Of a stretch of DNA of 34,916 nucleotides, positions 7,597-33,558 are shown in pieces; position 1 is the first letter of the stretch, and every line of letters starts with the position of its first letter. Location of the stretch: contig JAFZSO010000024.1 in assembly GCA_017619355.1 (NCBI GenBank), positions 1 through 34,916 on the forward strand, read 5' to 3'. This stretch comes from Muribaculaceae bacterium (GTDB lineage: Bacteria; Bacteroidota; Bacteroidia; Bacteroidales; Muribaculaceae). The position numbers were made by a program, and so were the translations under genes. The notes below the pieces were generated by a model that ran no database searches, was not told the origin of the DNA, and saw only the letters and a program-made list of their open reading frames with translations.

Positions 7597-7602
7597 TCCT
7601 GA

Positions 7603-7746
7603 TTTTGGCGCAATCTCCCTCAAAAACCAAGATTGCGCTAAAAATCGCGTTAATTCTGGCGCAATCTCCAAAAAAAATCAAGATTGCGCTAAAAATCTAC
7701 CACTTTTTTGGCGCAATCTCATTTTTTTATTAACTTTACGCCAAAA
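7603..7746. repeat. Tandem array of inverted-repeat units (51-52 bp period)
   Basis: GGCGCAATCT occurs at 7607-7616, 7658-7667 and 7710-7719, a period of 51 and then 52 bp. The first two are each followed by the inverted arm AGATTGCGCT (7630-7639 and 7681-7690), giving two hairpins with 9-bp stems and A-rich loops. The third unit lacks that arm; instead TTTTGGCG (7706-7713) pairs with CGCCAAAA (7739-7746) across the promoter of the next gene. The array fills the whole gap between the SDR gene and the ATPase gene. Confidence 0.9.
7707..7738 (+). promoter_or_regulatory. Promoter of the ATPase gene, embedded in the third repeat unit
   Basis: TTTG at 7707-7710, a 20-bp spacer and TAACTTTA at 7731-7738 (one mismatch to TAnnTTTG). 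The -33 box is part of the repeat core, and both boxes lie inside the perfect 8-bp inverted pair 7706-7713/7739-7746. The implied leader is only about 13 nt. Overlap with an operator-like palindrome suggests repression by a repeat-binding protein (inference). Confidence 0.65.
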
Positions 7747-7757
7747 TTAAGACGATT

Positions 7758-9221
7758 ATGAGACAAAACATCATTGGACGCGAACGCGAAATGACCAATC
7801 TGGATAACTATATTTCCAGTAATCAGTCGGAGTTTATAGCCATTTATGGCCGAAGGCGCATAGGCAAGACATTTCTGGTGAGGGAATTGTTTGAAGATAA
7901 ATTCGCTTTCCGAGCCACTGGGCGTGACAATGTCACCACTCGCCAACAGTTGGAGAATTTCTCTCAGGCACTGAAACGATACTCAGGTAAGGATTCAACA
8001 GCTGGTGACTGGAATCAGGCTTTTGCTTTGTTAGGTGAATACATTGAGAATATGCCTGAAACAGGTCCAAAACTGTTGTTCCTTGATGAATTGCCTTGGT
8101 TTGATACACGAGGTTCAAAATTTGTGAGCGCATTAGAGCACTTTTGGAACGACTGGGCCTCTTATCGTCGCGACATCAAGCTTATTGTGTGCGGTAGCGC
8201 AACCACATGGATGCTCGATGAAATCATCCATTCTCGTGGTGGTTTGCACAACCGTGTCACTCATTCCATACAACTTGAACCATTCACTCTTCATGAAACA
8301 GAACGCTATTTTGCTGCTCATGGTTTCCCCTATGAACGCCCAGAACTACTTGAGTGCTATATGGCAGTGGGAGGTGTTGCCTATTATCTGACTTTGTTTG
8401 ATCGCAGCGAGAGTGTGGCGCAGAACATCAACCGTTTATGCTTCAGTAGGGGAGGAGAAATGGTTGGCGAATTCGAGAACTCGTTTAAGTCGCTGTTCAA
8501 GAAAGCCCACGATCATATAGCGGTGGTTACAGCTCTGCAGACCAAGGGTATGGGAATGTCGCGACTTGAACTGATTGAAAATACTGGGTTAGGAAACAAT
8601 GGCAATATGACTCGGTTGCTCAATGAATTGGAGCGTTGCGATTTCATTCGCAGTTATGTGCCTTTTGGCAAGAGCAAGAAAGATAAACTTTATCAACTCA
8701 TAGATCCTTTTACATTATTCTATTTTAGATTCATGCATGGTCAGACTATCTATCAGCAGGACTATTGGCTTAAACTTCACACGACGCCTGCCTATGACAA
8801 TTGGTGTGGTTATGCGTTTGAGATTGTCTGTCTGAATCATTTGGACCAAATTATGCATGCGTTGGGCATTGATGGTATCATCAGCACCCCATGCTCGTGG
8901 ACCTACCGTCCAAGAAAAGCTGTTTTGGAAGACGATTTTGCCGATGAAGACCTGCGCCATGGTGCACAAATTGACTTGCTGATAGAGCGTGCCGACCGTA
9001 CTATCAACATTTGCGAAATGAAATATAGTCATGGCAAGTATGAGATTACCAAGAGTTACGACAGTCTGGTGGCGCGTCGGATGCAGACATTCCGCAAGGT
9101 AACCAAGACTAACAACACATTGGTTCTCCTATACATTACTCCCGAAGGACTTGTCGATAATGTTTATTCTCGTCGATTGGCTCGCACCGTGGTAGGTAAT
9201 GATTTGTTTGTAGGCAGGTGA
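7758..9221 (+). CDS. Archaeal-type AAA/STAND ATPase fused to a PD-(D/E)XK nuclease-like domain (DUF234/DUF4143-like)
   Basis: 487 residues. The N-terminal ATPase has Walker A GRRRIGKT (31-38), Walker B KLLFLDELPW (105-114, D110-E111) and a sensor-like CGSATTWM (145-152). A winged-helix-like middle follows (about 255-310). The C-terminal part has a nuclease signature: E355 in YAFEIV, D406 in GAQIDLLIE and E420-x-K422 in CEMKYS. All expected catalytic residues are kept, so it may cut DNA. The family is widespread in archaea and Bacteroidota, with no settled function that I know of. The gene is more A/T-rich than its neighbours and has its own promoter inside a tandem inverted-repeat array, which suggests acquisition by transfer. 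It interrupts a run of housekeeping genes without overlapping them. Confidence 0.85.
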   Translation: MRQNIIGREREMTNLDNYISSNQSEFIAIYGRRRIGKTFLVRELFEDKFAFRATGRDNVTTRQQLENFSQALKRYSGKDSTAGDWNQAFALLGEYIENMPETGPKLLFLDELPWFDTRGSKFVSALEHFWNDWASYRRDIKLIVCGSATTWMLDEIIHSRGGLHNRVTHSIQLEPFTLHETERYFAAHGFPYERPELLECYMAVGGVAYYLTLFDRSESVAQNINRLCFSRGGEMVGEFENSFKSLFKKAHDHIAVVTALQTKGMGMSRLELIENTGLGNNGNMTRLLNELERCDFIRSYVPFGKSKKDKLYQLIDPFTLFYFRFMHGQTIYQQDYWLKLHTTPAYDNWCGYAFEIVCLNHLDQIMHALGIDGIISTPCSWTYRPRKAVLEDDFADEDLRHGAQIDLLIERADRTINICEMKYSHGKYEITKSYDSLVARRMQTFRKVTKTNNTLVLLYITPEGLVDNVYSRRLARTVVGNDLFVGR

Positions 9222-26534: not shown

Positions 26535-29057
26535 TTATTCGGGTTCAGCGGCAAGCGGTATGGAATTGTCGTTGCCGAAAGTGTAGGTAAACGGATTGGT
26601 GCCGTGCGACATCAGGCTGGTGATGCCCGTGCCGTTATACAGGTCGTGCTGCATGTTCAGGAAGAAGTCGCGTATCTCCTTGGGCTCCATGTTCAGGCTG
26701 CGTTTTGCGTCATTGATGGTGTGGTACTTCATATCAATAAGCATCTCTAATTTCTCCATGCCCAGTTCCTTGAATCCATTGCGCACATACATCTGCAAGA
26801 TAAAGTTGGCAAATTCTTGCTGTGCTTTCGACACCTTTTTGAGCATATCCTCGCGCAAGATATCGGCACGGCGCTGGCGGTCGATGGGCGTGGTATTATA
26901 GGCAAGATAGCTCAGCACATCCAGCATGTCGCAGTCTTCCATTTCAAGGAAGCGGCGCATCAGGTTCAGCTTGTCTTCCTGGAACCCCGAACGCTCCAGC
27001 ACATCGAGCAACTCCTGGCGGGTCTTGGGATTGGCCCACTGCTCTCGCAAGTCTTCTTCGCCGTCAAGAAATTCGGGCAGTTTGCCGAAGAGGCGCTGGA
27101 TGTATTCCTCTATGGTGATGAGTTCATCGCCAAATTGTATGCGTTCCATCCAGTCGGTGTGCAGCGACAGACTGCGGCGGGCCGACAATTTCACAACCAC
27201 CTTGTTTTTCTTCCCGCCACCATGGCCTGGGCAAGTACACGGCAGATGTCCACAAACGGGGCAGGGCTCGGGTTGCTTGCCCGCACCGGCACTTTGGCCC
27301 AACTGCTGCCCTGAGGGCTGGATGCTTTTCGAGCAAATGCAAGGGTTATAGCCGCATATCGGGCAGCAGGGGTCGCCATCCCATTCCTCATCCTGGAAAT
27401 TCTTCGAAGCGCCCACATAGTCATAGAGCGTGAAGAAGTATTTGCCGTCGAACAGGCGGGTGCCACGCCCCATAATCTGCTTGAATTCCACAATGTTGTT
27501 CACCGGACGGAACAGCACAATGTTGCGCACATTGCGGGCATCGACGCCTGTGGAGAGTTTTCGCGATGTGGTGAGGATAGTGGGTCGCAGCAGGTCGTTG
27601 TTCTGGAACAGTTTCAGCTGTTTCTCGCCTTCATCCCCGTCATCGGCAGTCACGCGCTCGCAGTAGTTGCTGTCGGGCACCTTCTTCCACTGGTTAATCA
27701 TTGCGGCAATAAGCAGCGCATGCACTTGTGTGGCACAGAAAACGATGGTCTTCTCATCGGGGTTAATCTGCTCCAGCAGTTCTTTCACACGATGCTCGTC
27801 GCGTTCACGCATCTCAATGTTGCCTGCATAGAAATCACCCTCGTCATACACCTTCTCTTTATCGATGTCACCCTCCACATCGTCGTTAGGGTCATAGGTG
27901 TAGGTGTCGATGTTGCTGGTTGCCACTTTCACACGGAATGGCGTCAAGAAACCATCCTCAATGCCCTGCTTCAGCGAGTAGCTGTAAACGGGGTCGTTGA
28001 AGTATTTGTAGGTGTTGGCATTCACCTGGCGCCGAGGCGTGGCGGTCAAACCCAACTGCACCGCAGGTTCAAACCATTCCATCAACTGCCGCCATTCGCT
28101 CTCGTCGTTGGCACCGCCACGGTGACACTCGTCAATGATGATGAAGTCGAAGAAGTCCTTGGGCCATTGCTGGTAATAGGGCTTATCACTATCGGCTGGG
28201 CTGCCCATGATGGTCTGGAATATGGTGAAGTAGAGGTGCCGTGCGGTGGGCAACTTGCCGTTCAGAGCATCTTTCCCGCTCTTCTTGTTGAGCCGCTCGG
28301 CGGTGATGCGCTCCATAGAGTCCTCGCTGAACTGCTCAAAGTCGTTTTTCGCCTGATTGGCAAGAATGTTGCGGTCGGCAAGGAACAGGATGCGGGGTTT
28401 CTGGTCGGTGCCACGCGTGTTCCAGTTGGTTTCATACAGTTTCCAGCAAATCTGGAAGGCAGTATAGGTCTTGCCGGTTCCTGTTGCCATGGTGAGCAAG
28501 ATGCGTTTCTGGTCGTTGGCGATAGCCGTCAGCACCGAGTCGATGGCAATCTCCTGATAATAGCGAGGCTCACGACCTCCACCACGGTTCAGCTGACACA
28601 GGTTGAACTTGTCGCGCCATTCGTTCTTGTCGGGGTAGGTCATCTGCCACAGTTCCTGAGGCGACGGGAACTTGTCTACGGGGCCTTCGGTCGACGGGAT
28701 CAGGTAATTGCCTTGTGCGTCTTTCACGCCCATATCTATCTGCCATATCTCGTCGCCGTTGGTGGCATAGGCAAAACGCAGACGCAGCAACTCGGCATAA
28801 TGTTTAGCCTGAGGAATACCTTCAAATACCGATTTTTCGTCACTTTTGGCCTCAATCACTGCCAACTTCTTTTTCTTGTATTCCAGCACATAGTCGGCCT
28901 TCTTGGGGTGACGGTTCTGGGCGATGGCCGACACCTGGCCGGGAGCAATCTCATAGGCTCGTTGCTCGGTCAGTATCTCGCTTTGAGGCACTTGCTCCCA
29001 ACCCACTTCATAGAATTTTGGGTCTATCTTTTTTCTTCTTGTTGCGGTCTCGTCCAT
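26535..29057 (-). CDS. hsdR: Type I restriction enzyme, R (translocase/endonuclease) subunit
   Basis: Restriction subunit that translocates DNA with ATP and cuts unmodified targets. It has 840 residues. The N-terminal PD-(D/E)XK nuclease has D55, E69-A-K71 and the Q83-x3-Y87 element. The SF2 helicase follows: motif I ATGTGKT (191-197), DECH box (309-312), motif III LTATP (337-341) and motif VI QIMGRGTR (527-534). A helical HsdM-binding C-terminus completes it. Between motif VI and the C-terminus is a Cys-rich insert with two similar blocks, CCPICGYNPCIC (564-575) and CPVCGHLPCTC (599-609), likely Zn-binding. All catalytic motifs are intact, so it should be functional. It is the last gene of the operon, 8 bp after hsdS. 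Confidence 0.95.
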   Translation of the reverse strand: MDETATRRKKIDPKFYEVGWEQVPQSEILTEQRAYEIAPGQVSAIAQNRHPKKADYVLEYKKKKLAVIEAKSDEKSVFEGIPQAKHYAELLRLRFAYATNGDEIWQIDMGVKDAQGNYLIPSTEGPVDKFPSPQELWQMTYPDKNEWRDKFNLCQLNRGGGREPRYYQEIAIDSVLTAIANDQKRILLTMATGTGKTYTAFQICWKLYETNWNTRGTDQKPRILFLADRNILANQAKNDFEQFSEDSMERITAERLNKKSGKDALNGKLPTARHLYFTIFQTIMGSPADSDKPYYQQWPKDFFDFIIIDECHRGGANDESEWRQLMEWFEPAVQLGLTATPRRQVNANTYKYFNDPVYSYSLKQGIEDGFLTPFRVKVATSNIDTYTYDPNDDVEGDIDKEKVYDEGDFYAGNIEMRERDEHRVKELLEQINPDEKTIVFCATQVHALLIAAMINQWKKVPDSNYCERVTADDGDEGEKQLKLFQNNDLLRPTILTTSRKLSTGVDARNVRNIVLFRPVNNIVEFKQIMGRGTRLFDGKYFFTLYDYVGASKNFQDEEWDGDPCCPICGYNPCICSKSIQPSGQQLGQSAGAGKQPEPCPVCGHLPCTCPGHGGGKKNKVVVKLSARRSLSLHTDWMERIQFGDELITIEEYIQRLFGKLPEFLDGEEDLREQWANPKTRQELLDVLERSGFQEDKLNLMRRFLEMEDCDMLDVLSYLAYNTTPIDRQRRADILREDMLKKVSKAQQEFANFILQMYVRNGFKELGMEKLEMLIDMKYHTINDAKRSLNMEPKEIRDFFLNMQHDLYNGTGITSLMSHGTNPFTYTFGNDNSIPLAAEPE

Positions 29058-29065
29058 ATTGCGGG

Positions 29066-30253
29066 TTATTCAAAGGTTTCTCGTAATAATGCTTGTTTCA
29101 GTGCATCGCACTCCGCTATTGTCTGCTTGTGTATCTCCTCCATCTCACGCACTTGAGCCGACAGCTTGTCCAATCGCTCAACTATAGCTTCCTGCTCAGC
29201 AATAGGAATAAAAGGGATTAAAACTTTTTTTATTTTCTCTTGTGATATATTTGGTTGTGCTCCACCTTGAGCTTGCGATGCTAGTTGTTTTTCTATATGC
29301 TTGAACCAAAAATACACAAAGTCAGGTAAAAAATTATTATTTGGCAATATTCCACAGACTGCTTGGTTTGAAGTAGCAGGAAACTTTAGAATACCAACTT
29401 GAGCGGCCGTTGCACCATACATGGCCACAAGAACTGTATCAATAGGATAAAACTTTGCTGATGAGTTTTTTAATCCATCTTCAGTGATAAATAATTCACA
29501 TTCTGTAATAAATCGTTTACATACTTCTCCACTTCTAATCCATGGGATATTCCCATTTTCATAATATGACTTGTTCGATTTGATAGGTGTACCTCCTGAA
29601 TAAGTTTTAAAAATTTCACAAATAGGTTTCTTTTCCCAGCCTTTTTTGGGTTGCATGGCTTCGTTGAGGGAGGCATTGAAAAGGGCACGGGCATCCGCAA
29701 GTTCCTGCTCAGCATTTGCCTTCAGCTCGTCAATCTTCGCAAACGCCGCATCCAGCCGCTCCACAATCCGCTCCTGCTCCTCCAGCGGCGGCACCGGAAT
29801 AGGGATTTTTTCAAGGTTCTTTCTGCTTATTCTTTTTCTTGTTGTACCAGTAATATAATCATTTACACAATTGAGATATTTTGAACATTGAGTATAGTAT
29901 ATAAAAAAACGAGAAAGGTACTCATTTTTAAACCTTATAATTGAACAGTCAACAGCGGTAATCATTCTGTGACCAGTACTGGGTATTATGCAAGCGCGAC
30001 CCACAGGTTCAGGTAATCTTGAAACTAAGCAATCACCTTCAAATATCTCAGTGCATCCTAATCTTGACATCGTCTCTTCTGTTATAAAATGAGCTTTATC
30101 CTCTTTTAATTTGAAAATGCCATTACCAATATTTCCTGTTTGAATTAACCTAATTCCGTTTTTAGATTGGTCTTTACTCTCAATCCAATCTCCATCAGCC
30201 ATAAATCTTACAACCTCTCCCAGTTTCTTATATGTCCATCCTTGCTTACTCAT
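29066..30253 (-). CDS. hsdS: Type I restriction enzyme, specificity subunit
   Basis: DNA-recognition subunit shared by methylase and nuclease complexes. It has 395 residues in two half-repeats. Each target-recognition domain (about 5-150 and 200-345) is followed by a conserved helical region: PPLEEQERIVERLDAAFAKI (about 156-175) and PIAEQEAIVERLDKL (about 349-363), ending in ALLRETFE. The recognition-domain DNA is visibly richer in A/T than the conserved helical parts, as expected for exchanged specificity modules. The ATG overlaps the preceding gene as ATGAGTAA, so translation is coupled; the start five codons upstream is less likely. The recognised sequence cannot be derived here. Confidence 0.94.
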   Translation of the reverse strand: MSKQGWTYKKLGEVVRFMADGDWIESKDQSKNGIRLIQTGNIGNGIFKLKEDKAHFITEETMSRLGCTEIFEGDCLVSRLPEPVGRACIIPSTGHRMITAVDCSIIRFKNEYLSRFFIYYTQCSKYLNCVNDYITGTTRKRISRKNLEKIPIPVPPLEEQERIVERLDAAFAKIDELKANAEQELADARALFNASLNEAMQPKKGWEKKPICEIFKTYSGGTPIKSNKSYYENGNIPWIRSGEVCKRFITECELFITEDGLKNSSAKFYPIDTVLVAMYGATAAQVGILKFPATSNQAVCGILPNNNFLPDFVYFWFKHIEKQLASQAQGGAQPNISQEKIKKVLIPFIPIAEQEAIVERLDKLSAQVREMEEIHKQTIAECDALKQALLRETFE

Positions 30254-30911
30254 AGTTGTTTTTAGCAATGATTTGATTCAGTCTTGCAATCTCGTTTTTC
30301 AATTTGGCGATTTCTTGCCTTGCTTCTTCGAGCTGATGCTTGGTGTCGTTGCGATATCCCAGTCTTGCAGCAGTCATCCTTTCCTTAATGCCACCTTCGG
30401 TTACAAACTGGTTTTCCAATTCTTTGAGATAAGAAGTCATCATCTTGTCGCACATGCGGCACAAGGTATAAGCCACATTGCCCATTTCCTCGTCGGTCCA
30501 CACATCAAAAAATGGTTCATAGTCGGCCACATCATTGTGCGTGCGGCAATATTGTATCATGCCTTCAAAACGCTTGTTGTCTTTATCCCACAAAGGCAAA
30601 CGATGGCTCTTGAGATAATCAACATAGTCTTCCCTTAATTCCTGCAAACTCGAGCGCGCCACATTGAGCAACCTGATTTCCATCTCAGTAGATGTCACCC
30701 CGTCGGCCGAGCCCTCTATGATATTCTGCTTGCCCGAACGGGCGGCTTGCACCATCTGGTCAACGGTCCGGTCGCCATAAGTGGGCAAGAATCTGCTTGT
30801 GAACCTCACAGTAAGGTAATAGAGCGCCACGGCTTTTCGGTAGAACCAGAGCTCTTCCCAAAAGGCCTGCCTGCGCAAGATGGTTGCAGTAGTGGTTTTG
30901 TTGTTATCCAT
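30246..30911 (-). CDS. Four-helix-bundle (S23/Avd-like) protein within the R-M operon
   Basis: 221 residues. The central part matches the four-helix-bundle family that includes S23-type intervening-sequence proteins and the Avd protein of diversity-generating retroelements: QAARSGKQNIIEGSADG (55-71), then EMEIRLLNVARSSLQELREDY (76-96, corresponding to the IA.gSl.El motif). The C-terminus is a heptad coiled coil (KHQLEEARQEIAKLKNEI and onward, about 192-218). Its stop codon overlaps the hsdS start, so it is made in step with HsdS. No reverse transcriptase is in the window. Its role in restriction is unknown; the basic bundle may bind nucleic acid or assist assembly (inference). Confidence 0.8.
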   Translation of the reverse strand: MDNNKTTTATILRRQAFWEELWFYRKAVALYYLTVRFTSRFLPTYGDRTVDQMVQAARSGKQNIIEGSADGVTSTEMEIRLLNVARSSLQELREDYVDYLKSHRLPLWDKDNKRFEGMIQYCRTHNDVADYEPFFDVWTDEEMGNVAYTLCRMCDKMMTSYLKELENQFVTEGGIKERMTAARLGYRNDTKHQLEEARQEIAKLKNEIARLNQIIAKNNYE

Positions 30912-30957
30912 TGTTTTATGCTGGTTTTTATCGTTAATAGCTTGGTTTTTGCTGGTT

Positions 30958-31011
30958 TTCTAGTTTCTCTAGTGCTTCTAGAATTTCTAGTTTTTCTAGA
31001 GTTTCTAGTTG
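30958..31011. repeat. Degenerate 9-bp-period tract, CTAG type (6 units)
   Basis: Six contiguous 9-mers read TTCTAGTTT, CTCTAGTGC, TTCTAGAAT, TTCTAGTTT, TTCTAGAGT and TTCTAGTTG. The last one contains the hsdM stop codon on the opposite strand. The tract fills part of the 93-bp gap between hsdM and the four-helix-bundle gene. The same unit occurs at 1319-1363. Confidence 0.9.
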
Positions 31012-32453
31012 TTGATGGCTTTGAGGTTTTCCAGTATCTCTTTAGCCTTGCCATTGAGTTCCACAAGCTGGTCGAGTATCTGCTGGGGCGTGCGCTCATC
31101 CACTTCCTCCACCTTGTTCGGGTTTTTCACTGAGAGGTCGCAATCCTCGCCCAGTGTGCTGGCATCGAGTGTCCACGAGTTCTCGCTGTCGGGCTTGGTT
31201 TTCTGCAGTTCCACAAACTCGGCAAGGTCATCTTCGTTGAGCGCGTTGGTCTTGCCCAGGTTGCGGCCAGGATTGAGCTGGTAATACCATATCTTCTCGG
31301 TGGGCGTGCCCTTGTCGAAGAAAAGCACCACCGTCTTCACGCCAGCACCTTGAAACACGCCACTGGGCAGGTCAAGTATGGTGTGCAGGTTGCACTGCTC
31401 CAAGAGCAGTTTGCGCAAACTCGCCGCATCGCCATTGCTCAAGAAAGTGTTCTTGATAACAATGCCGGCCCTGCCGCCCACCTTGAGCATCTTGATGAAG
31501 TGCTGCATAAACATATAGGCGGTTTCGCTGGTGTTGATATCGAAGTTCTGCTTCACCTCGCCACGCTCTGAGCCACCAAAAGGCGGATTGGCAAGAATCA
31601 CATTCTTGCGGTCACGCTCCTGCACATTGGCAAGGTTCTCGGCAAGCGTGTTGCCTCGAATAATGTTAGGCGCCTGAAGCCCGTGGAAAATCAGGTTCAT
31701 TGTGGCAATGATGTAGGGCAACGGCTTTTTCTCCTTGCCATAGAAGGTGTCTTCTTGCAGCCTCTTGGCATCGTTGGTGCTCTTGATGCGCTGCTGCATA
31801 TAGGCAAAAGCCTCGCACAAGAAGCCTGCCGAACCGCAAGCAGGGTCATAGACCGTTTCACCTATTTTGGGGTCAACCACCTTCACGATGGTGCGGATGA
31901 GAGGGCGCGGGGTGTAGTACTCGCCACCATTGCGGCCGGCGTTGCCCATCTTGGCAATCTTCGATTCATAGAGCACGGTCATCTCATGCTTGTCTTCGGC
32001 ACTCTGGAAATGCAACTGATCGATGAGGTTGATTACCTCGCGCAGGTTGTAGCCCGAGGTAATCTTGTTGCGCAGTTCCGAGAAAATCTCGCCAATCTTG
32101 TATTCCAGCGTCTTGGCGCTGGTGGCAGTGTCCTTGAACTGGGCCAAGGTGGGAAACAGTTTGCCCTCGACGAACGAGGCCAAGTCGGGGCCCGTCATGG
32201 CATTGACCGTGTCGAGCGTGCCATCGGGCTTTTTGGGTGCAGCCCACTGGCTCCAGCGCATATAGCCCGAGAGGATGGGTTTATAGGTTTTTCCTGTGAG
32301 CAAGGCCTTGTCTTCACGCTCTTTGTCTAAGTCATCAAGATATTTGAGAAACAAGAGCCATGAGGTCTGTTCTATATAATCTAATTCGGTAGAGCATCCC
32401 GCCTCATTGCGCAAGATGTTGTCGATAGCATTGAATGTAGCTTCGTATTGCAT
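31005..32453 (-). CDS. hsdM: Type I restriction-modification system, methyltransferase subunit
   Basis: N6-adenine DNA methyltransferase using S-adenosylmethionine; with HsdS it protects host DNA. It has 482 residues. A helical HsdM_N domain (about 5-140) is followed by the catalytic domain with the AdoMet motif DPACGSAGF (203-211) and the catalytic motif NPPF (289-292). The GGEYYTPRPL segment (176-185) is typical. The C-terminal helices contact HsdS. It is the first gene of the operon, with a -7 box 50 bp upstream; the next gene follows after a 93-bp gap carrying the 9-bp-period tract. Confidence 0.96.
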   Translation of the reverse strand: MQYEATFNAIDNILRNEAGCSTELDYIEQTSWLLFLKYLDDLDKEREDKALLTGKTYKPILSGYMRWSQWAAPKKPDGTLDTVNAMTGPDLASFVEGKLFPTLAQFKDTATSAKTLEYKIGEIFSELRNKITSGYNLREVINLIDQLHFQSAEDKHEMTVLYESKIAKMGNAGRNGGEYYTPRPLIRTIVKVVDPKIGETVYDPACGSAGFLCEAFAYMQQRIKSTNDAKRLQEDTFYGKEKKPLPYIIATMNLIFHGLQAPNIIRGNTLAENLANVQERDRKNVILANPPFGGSERGEVKQNFDINTSETAYMFMQHFIKMLKVGGRAGIVIKNTFLSNGDAASLRKLLLEQCNLHTILDLPSGVFQGAGVKTVVLFFDKGTPTEKIWYYQLNPGRNLGKTNALNEDDLAEFVELQKTKPDSENSWTLDASTLGEDCDLSVKNPNKVEEVDERTPQQILDQLVELNGKAKEILENLKAINN

Positions 32454-33425: not shown

Positions 33426-33474
33426 GTCGTGCGTAGCACGGTGGACGGTGCCGCAGGCATTGAAACTCGACCCA
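33392..33474. other. Segment with two short hairpins between repeat copies
   Basis: CCCCGA/TCGGGG with a 5-nt loop (33394-33410) and CGTGC/GCACG with a 3-nt loop (33428-33440). It contains the stop codon of the winged-helix gene. No T-run follows either stem. Confidence 0.45.
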
Positions 33475-33558
33475 ATTCGGTACAATAAATAACGAACGCA
33501 GTACGAAAAACAACGACTTCGGTACAATAAATAACGAATTCGGTACGAAGCAATCACT
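33475..33558. repeat. Iteron-like array of 21-bp direct repeats (3 full, 1 partial)
   Basis: Contiguous 21-bp units start at 33475, 33496, 33517 and 33538. The core is CGGTACAATAAATAACGA, with a variant CAGTACGAAAAACAACGA in the second; the fourth copy keeps only ATTCGGTACGAA. A period of exactly two DNA turns would place bound protein on one face of the helix. Confidence 0.85.

Follow-up and report, generated by a model that had tools for sequence, protein, structure and literature searches.

Results

An ATPase-nuclease gene of the PDC-S27 type

We analyzed a stretch of 34,916 nt from a Muribaculaceae genome, hereafter called the window, in which an ATPase-nuclease gene of the PDC-S27 type occupies positions 7758-9221 of the forward strand (ATG at 7758, stop codon ending at 9221) and encodes 487 amino acids. 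An ATPase_2 domain (PF01637; residues 8-212, 7779-8393, forward strand) with Walker A at G31-T38 and Walker B at D110-E111 is followed by a winged helix-turn-helix (residues 250-314, 8505-8699, forward strand), recognized from the AlphaFold model (pLDDT 92.1) and fold matches, and by a C-terminal PD-(D/E)xK-like nuclease region (about residues 345-461, 8790-9140, forward strand). The protein has the NBD-helical-winged-helix fold of a STAND ATPase of the SSO1545 type, and G31-R34, G36-T38, D110/E111, E355, D406, E420 and K422 are the same in all 66 sequences of an alignment, in agreement with the first-pass annotation, which had described Walker A/B, E355, D406 and E420-x-K422 as kept. The same annotation labeled the protein as DUF234/DUF4143-type; Pfam finds neither family in it at E 0.001 and matches ATPase_2 instead, and both labels were dropped. 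In Wolbachia phage WO, a relative with 36% identity carries the DUF234 annotation. Pfam likewise finds no Y1 (HUH) transposase domain (PF01797) in the window protein, and sequence comparison gave no relative of solved structure at E 1. In comparison with the STAND ATPases SSO1545 (2fna) and PABY2304 (2qen), the protein adds the nuclease region, and for its winged helix we propose a DNA-reading role; in STAND proteins such a helix usually serves regulation and not DNA reading.

The PADLOC profile PDC-S27 matches the protein over its full length (residues 3-484, E 2.7e-189); the PDC names reportedly go back to a 2024 preprint by Payne et al. The PD-(D/E)xK fold class of PDC-S27 is taken from the accessible portion of PMC12988326, and the composition given there, an ATPase with a PD-(D/E)xK nuclease, fits the window protein, in which the full profile match and the ATPase and nuclease residues are shared and the nuclease fold is assigned from the conserved residues together with that source. 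The accessible portions of PMC13356809 and PMC12988326 describe the family as abundant in rumen genomes and archaea, and the latter states that PDCs remain unvalidated; antiviral function is unproven in these portions and for the window gene alike. Repeats at the gene are unmentioned in the same portions of the two papers, the word "inverted" occurring 0 times in the main text of PMC12988326. In the accessible literature, which leaves many subscription papers and all preprints outside, we found no description of repeats at PDC-S27-type genes, and this is therefore no proof of novelty; nor did the literature searched offer a mechanism for ATPases of this type.

The window's own genome carries three further full-length members with 39-44% identity to the window protein, and up to 15 copies of the family coexist in one genome. 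Presence at E 1e-60 is patchy and covers 73 of 101 genomes of the genus, 58/198 of the family, 51/295 of the order and 11/247 of the phylum. Among eight scanned neighbors of the window gene PADLOC matched none, and type I restriction-modification genes, also identified with PADLOC, lie on the same contig about 17 kb away at 26535-32453 (REase 26535-29057, MTase 31005-32453).

The array and promoter at the window locus

Upstream of the gene there is a real array of 2.5 inverted-repeat units (7603-7746) with the period of 51-52 bp described in the first-pass annotation: direct copies start at 7602, 7653 and 7705 (spacings 51 and 52), copies 2 and 3 being 89% and 64% identical to copy 1. Unit 1 (7603-7643, unstranded like the others) has arms at 7603-7616 and 7630-7643 that are complementary at 13 of 14 positions, unit 2 (7654-7694) arms at 7654-7667 and 7681-7694 complementary at 12 of 14, and unit 3 (7706-7746), which encloses the promoter, arms at 7706-7716 and 7736-7746 complementary at 10 of 11. 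In unit 3 the left half-site is complete and the right arm is degraded by the -7 box. As also described before, the unit supplies the -33 box and one arm of a perfect 8-bp palindrome around the promoter, TTTTGGCG/CGCCAAAA at 7706-7713/7739-7746. The -33 element TTTG (7707-7710, forward strand) overlaps the left half-site of unit 3 and is separated by 20 bp from the -7 element TAACTTTA (7731-7738, forward strand), whose last base is A instead of G; both lie inside the unit 3 palindrome and together fit a Bacteroidota-type promoter. The putative operator thus overlaps the gene's own promoter, as the latter is placed by consensus alone.

The array's best inverted-repeat score was reached by 4 of 2000 dinucleotide shuffles, and 40 of 2000 had, like the array, a 10-mer in triplicate without mismatch; in the rest of the window a single other stretch (near 1281) attains that score. 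The strict pair GCGCAATCT-N6..30-AGATTGCGC has its sole occurrence in the window's own genome at the array, and no matching repeat was found downstream of the window gene. Since an equally good dyad exists between units 2 and 3 (7681-7695/7705-7719), the dyad register rests on comparison across the family. Two other tandem repeats were noticed in the window: an TTTCTAGT-type repeat with period 9/18/27 at the 3' end of the type I methyltransferase gene (30956-31010) and a 21-bp AATTCGGTACAAAAAATAACG repeat at 33474-33546.

Repeats of fixed geometry and diverging sequence across the family

We gathered 189, later 322, distinct relatives and scanned the 184 of the first set that had enough upstream sequence, five having <150 nt. 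One locus with no long frame from the chosen start (L057) was left out of the protein analyses, loci lacking a fixed-geometry dyad (8 of 184, and 16 of 307 in the larger set) out of the half-site analyses, loci at <=34% identity out of the co-diversification set, and loci with a best score <9 out of the geometry and bracket analyses. An inverted repeat with a score of at least 8 precedes the gene in 174 of the 184 loci. This score was reached by 16% of the 368 dinucleotide shuffles and by 22% of the upstream regions taken from 189 other ORFs of the same loci; these ORFs were called mechanically and some of them may be no genes. A score of 12 is reached by 57% of the loci vs. 0.3% of the shuffles and 2.6% of the other ORFs, and in the larger set 93% of 316 loci score at least 8. 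Relatives without upstream repeats, which the first-pass annotation had named as evidence against its reading, are the exception, the scan finding none in 10 of the 184.

The repeats share their layout. When the loop was allowed any length from 0 to 70 nt, 133 of 167 loci had their arm midpoints at a distance of 10-19 bp from the dyad vs. 37 of 135 hits in shuffles; of 187 tandem spacings, 118 measure 51-54 bp. A dyad of fixed geometry is found in 176 of 184 loci and, in the larger set, in 291 of 307, leaving about 5% of the loci with none; as 141 of 552 shuffles also show such geometry, single weak dyads may be due to chance. Read inward, the half-site is T G S C N M A A, with its first base 16 bp and its last base 9 bp from the dyad, and comprises 173 distinct 8-mers among 291 loci. 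When spacers of 12-20 bp were permitted, the window-type unit occurred at 11 sites in 8 of the 101 genus genomes, 9 of the 11 with a spacer of 15 bp. The promoter follows the same pattern: TAnnTTTG is present 15-120 nt before the start in 265 of 291 loci vs. 27 of 291 shuffles, and the boxes stand in discrete registers to the half-sites; in 101 of 261 loci the box comes 21-23 nt downstream of where the last left half-site begins. A chance origin of the array was rejected by the family scan against its controls, the fixed-geometry dyads and the dinucleotide shuffles.

Two of the paralogues in the window's own genome (L003 and L004) have tandem palindromes at the promoter in the same layout with different arm sequences, and the third (L002) has one long inverted repeat that fits the register poorly. 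Comparable layouts exist outside Bacteroidales. Six of ten non-archaeal members examined reach a best score of at least 11 (Segatella, Phocaeicola, Butyrivibrio, Emticicia, phage MT835483 and Rhodothermus), those on a Butyrivibrio and an Emticicia plasmid having TGGCGGAA half-sites, and the members of Malaciobacter, Desulfosarcina and B. uniformis score 8-9. For the member in Wolbachia phage WO the scan found no repeat, while by eye two palindromic units with 7-nt arms were visible; there, beside phage head genes, ACCGCGG...CCGCGGT occurs twice upstream of the gene (L390:1390-1500), the first copy with one change. Neither of two distant archaeal relatives examined has such repeats. On a Rhodothermus marinus plasmid, csm5 of a type III-A CRISPR system is followed at about 1.4 kb by a distant relative (L397). 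Phage genomes were discarded as a reservoir of the window-type repeat, as its 11 strict matches in viral_contigs are about what a rough estimate gives for chance and 0 of the 11 fall in a stretch with a relative of the gene.

Palindromes of this kind could also function through hairpins of RNA or single-stranded DNA, like the REPs of RAYT systems, and compensatory change of both arms is expected of hairpins as well as of duplex operators. A hairpin would nevertheless sit poorly with a near-constant distance from dyad to half-site around a variable center, a period near five helical turns and conserved A-rich inner bases. Arm mismatches comprise 106 G.T and 86 A.C, and the lack of a clear wobble bias speaks for duplex DNA over a hairpin; moreover, the promoter lies in the last unit and the gene transcript should therefore exclude the array. 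Given the geometry and the mismatch counts, we consider hairpins a very improbable explanation.

Repeat sequence follows the protein and its recognition helix

The first-pass annotation proposed that the array is the protein's own DNA target and suggested comparing array sequence with protein subclade. The two do covary: half-site similarity follows protein identity in a Mantel test (0 of 200 permutations), repeat sequence tracking subclade, and the proportion of pairs sharing a half-site (>=0.8) rises from 2% of 22,749 pairs at 40-45% identity to 12% at 50-60%, 63% of 533 at 60-70% and 93% of 82 at >=90%. With overall identity held constant, the best predictor of half-site similarity among all 15-residue windows was residues 280-294 (8595-8639, forward strand), which cover the recognition helix H282-293 of the AlphaFold model, in both pair sets examined (partial rho 0.23 for 19,285 pairs and 0.32 for 6,305 pairs). 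In the narrower set the next separate window was the wing (298-312) with 397-411 just below, and in the wider set windows 127-141 and 397-411 were slightly above the wing.

The couplings between single residues and bases point to the same part of the protein, although they are modest and inflated by relatedness. The top four (residue-offset 280-12, 280-13, 308-10 and 283-16) all fall in residues 280-294 or in the wing; of the top ten, 4 lie in 276-314 vs. 0.8 expected. G at 12 accompanies D280, A or C at 12 and C at 13 accompany S280, and A at 10 accompanies K308. Among 143 disjoint near pairs, residue 280 ranked first for association with half-site change (p 4.6e-8), residue 234 being almost level (p 5.9e-8), and residue 283 with offset 15 was first of 3228 residue-offset tests (p 5.3e-8), followed by residue 17; 3 of the 20 top pairs lay in 276-314 vs. 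1.9 expected, a weak enrichment. The first mutual-information run, on 175 loci with a cruder register, was not significant (9 of the 50 top pairs in 256-322 with 7.1 expected, the best pair involving residue 158), and the first window scan peaked at 296-310 with rho 0.15. After these runs the set was enlarged and the register refined with an iterative matrix, based on the repeats and blind to the proteins. Because of the nonsignificant first run and the weak near-pair enrichment, we put the recognition code forward as a well-grounded hypothesis and not as proof. On the strength of the co-diversification and of the recognition helix as its best predictor, the array appears to be the protein's own target, which the comparison supports well.

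Paralogues within one genome share a half-site in 1 of 161 pairs, in comparison with about 6 expected from identity-matched pairs between genomes, which suggests that paralogues are insulated from each other; incomplete assemblies may contribute to the difference. The same count bears on whether some other host regulator, and not the ATPase, binds the repeats. Such a regulator would accommodate the window-type arrays that stand with an intact-looking promoter before another gene in four genomes (G088, G093, G094 and G095), where none of the examined subset of family members has the window half-site. It would leave unexplained that half-sites follow the ATPase subclade and its recognition helix and that paralogues of one genome so seldom share them, and we think another regulator has little chance of being the answer.

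Bracketed genes, solo arrays and one orthologous site

In part of the family the gene's own palindrome recurs behind it. Of 144 loci, 31 have a copy no more than 200 bp behind the stop codon, where 20 permutations of the half-sites gave 1.3 on average and 4 at most, whereas the remaining 113 have no strict downstream copy; at 200-1000 bp none was found in the 131 loci with longer tails, and looser spacing gave one further copy near 1071 bp (L231). The spacer of the downstream copy is identical to that of an upstream copy in 6 of the 31 (mean 0.81). Similarity fades over about 30 bp outside the repeat, and the copied unit is therefore roughly the palindrome.

Two genomes have arrays and no ATPase at relatives of the window's own site. 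In G063 the order is SDR, one half-site and M28, and in G092 1.5 units precede M28, with no SDR in the stretch covered. In the four genomes G088, G093, G094 and G095 the window-type array and promoter stand before a gene of about 380 aa with no Pfam match, and in G020 the ATPase lies between two copies of this region. The gene of about 380 aa is conserved (L323:280-1419, L325:137-1300, L326:1667-2806 and L327:1615-2721), with no ATPase in the stretch covered.

A second repeat type, CTCCGTAAC, has 38 strict sites in 24 of the 101 genus genomes vs. 1 for the reversed control. Repeats found mostly near unrelated genes had been named in the first-pass annotation as speaking against it, and taken literally this is the case, 15 of the 38 sites being near an ATPase gene; however, 22 of the 24 loci group together when their flanks are compared and represent a single intergenic site next to genes for outer-membrane proteins, and 7 of these have the ATPase. 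In a census of this site (30 loci listed of 53 matching genomes, read about 1.5 kb beyond the flank), the ATPase is bracketed in 6 loci, repeats stand alone in 11, a RAYT-like Y1 transposase is present in 6, a PDC-S01 gene lies beside or between repeats in 2, and 5 have no CTCCGTAAC-type palindrome in the stretch covered, one of these with a REP-like palindrome. The solo arrays that the annotation had suggested looking for thus exist. Pfam identifies the Y1 transposases of G051 (L428:2125-3090) and G073 (L444:2100-3095), and the other four (L437, L440, L441 and L446) are 83-88% identical to that of G051; REP-like palindromes surround the genes of G051 and G073. The PDC-S01 genes (AAA_14 and DUF4143) at CTCCGTAAC palindromes, in G056 (L450:1950-2160) and on the reverse strand in G095 (L452), both have three tandem direct repeats AAATCTCAAAAAGGT(G) of their own upstream, and PDC-S01 may be another ATPase family whose promoter array is private.

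Occupancy of the CTCCGTAAC site varies between species whose flanks are 93-95% identical, and its state does not follow the flank-gene tree (18 changes vs. an average of 16.7 in shuffles; 29 of the 30 loci). G064, which has the gene, equals G053, which has none, through the second palindrome, after which G053 joins the flank that in G054, again with the gene, is found after the downstream palindrome. These junctions fit what exchange between two brackets would leave.

Two explanations compete for these patterns with an operator array whose brackets would ease gene loss. The ATPase-nuclease might act on the palindrome ends and move or copy repeat, gene and repeat as a selfish element comparable to REP/RAYT, with solo arrays as remnants or targets. 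The downstream brackets with their occasionally identical spacers and fading outer similarity, the mixed states of the CTCCGTAAC site and their mismatch with the flank tree, junctions fitting repeat-to-repeat exchange and the ATPase-less arrays before M28 in G063 and G092 would all suit such an element. On the other hand, we saw no newly occupied site with a target duplication, each genome has few arrays, most loci and the window gene itself have no strict copy behind the gene, the same solo arrays would come from ordinary recombination, the repeats being about 37 bp long, and recombination of the flank genes may have blurred the tree; we regard the selfish element as possible, though doubtful. 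Alternatively, the gene may be a phage-defense gene gained and lost like others, the array being only its regulator and the solo arrays meaningless deletion scars. The PDC-S27 match, the family's abundance in rumen genomes and archaea, its patchy presence and the other defense candidate, PDC-S01, at the same site in two genomes agree with this, against which stand the unvalidated status of PDCs and the neighbors free of PADLOC matches, type I restriction system some way off notwithstanding. To our judgment this explanation has an even chance of being right.

Discussion

We consider it likely, from comparison of genomes, that the array is a self-targeted cooperative operator that keeps a STAND ATPase-nuclease repressed and that brackets in part of the family enable loss of the gene. 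The comparison itself shows that geometry is conserved while sequence diverges, that the repeats overlap the promoter and covary with the recognition helix, that some genes are bracketed downstream and that loci differ in having or lacking the gene. From this we infer that the protein binds and represses, in which oligomeric state it does so, that paralogues are insulated, that brackets recombine and what the nuclease does. The winged helix, as a dimer or higher oligomer, would bind palindromic half-sites TGnCnnAA about 9-16 bp either side of the dyad, and half-site pairs recurring every 52-53 bp, about five helical turns, would lie on one face of the DNA and permit cooperative binding along the array. 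As the last operator covers the promoter, protein bound there would stop its own synthesis, making the array a cooperative operator. The autoregulation predicted in the first-pass annotation gains support from the discrete registers of operators on promoters, and autorepression through the array is what we infer from them. The ATPase would serve as the switch and the nuclease as the effector, probably acting on invading DNA or on the cell once ATP-driven release or assembly occurs. With a private half-site and a matching recognition helix for each family member, paralogues of one genome appear largely insulated. Where a cognate unit lies just after the gene, recombination between the brackets could remove the gene and leave a solo array, and the gene would then be readily lost and perhaps also gained; at fixed sites, a rapid turnover like that of REPs would therefore be expected.

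The REP-like layout suggested at the outset holds in part. As in REP/RAYT systems (accessible portions of PMC2817692 and PMC3116915), part of the ATPase family is bracketed by its own palindromes and solo palindromes occur, the palindrome sequence follows the protein lineage, and sister species have RAYT-like genes in the same intergenic site. In contrast, the enzyme is a STAND ATPase with a PD-(D/E)xK nuclease and not Y1/HUH, copy number is low, the palindromes carry the promoter and have a fixed duplex geometry, and brackets are wanting in most loci; the many dispersed palindromes per genome typical of REPs were not found either, the strict unit being confined in its own genome to the window array. 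The window locus is therefore not a member of REP/RAYT, its enzyme being unrelated, its copy number low and a second bracket absent. A more elaborate version of the selfish element, in which the ATPase-nuclease reads a private palindrome by an evolvable recognition-helix code, brackets its gene, gains and leaves sites by nuclease action at palindromes and is silenced by them, strikes us as unlikely, slightly more so than the general version. If true, private addresses would keep up to 15 coexisting copies per genome from interfering, and RAYTs and the ATPase family would be unrelated enzymes converged on one way of life and competing for intergenic sites.

Among defense systems, BrxR of BREX is reportedly an example of an autoregulated operator. 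Like BrxR, the window protein would be a regulator of a defense locus acting at the DNA level; unlike there, a single protein would combine regulator, ATPase and nuclease, and each paralogue has an operator sequence of its own.

Under the operator reading, each PDC-S27-type gene seems to name its own DNA target, and binding, regulation and nuclease activity are therefore directly testable with known substrates. The family would at the same time be a natural library of matched winged-helix and palindrome pairs, useful for the study of the protein-DNA recognition code. Finally, the loci that have or lack the repeat-bracketed gene suggest that an enzyme with no relation to RAYTs may have come to a REP-like way of life.
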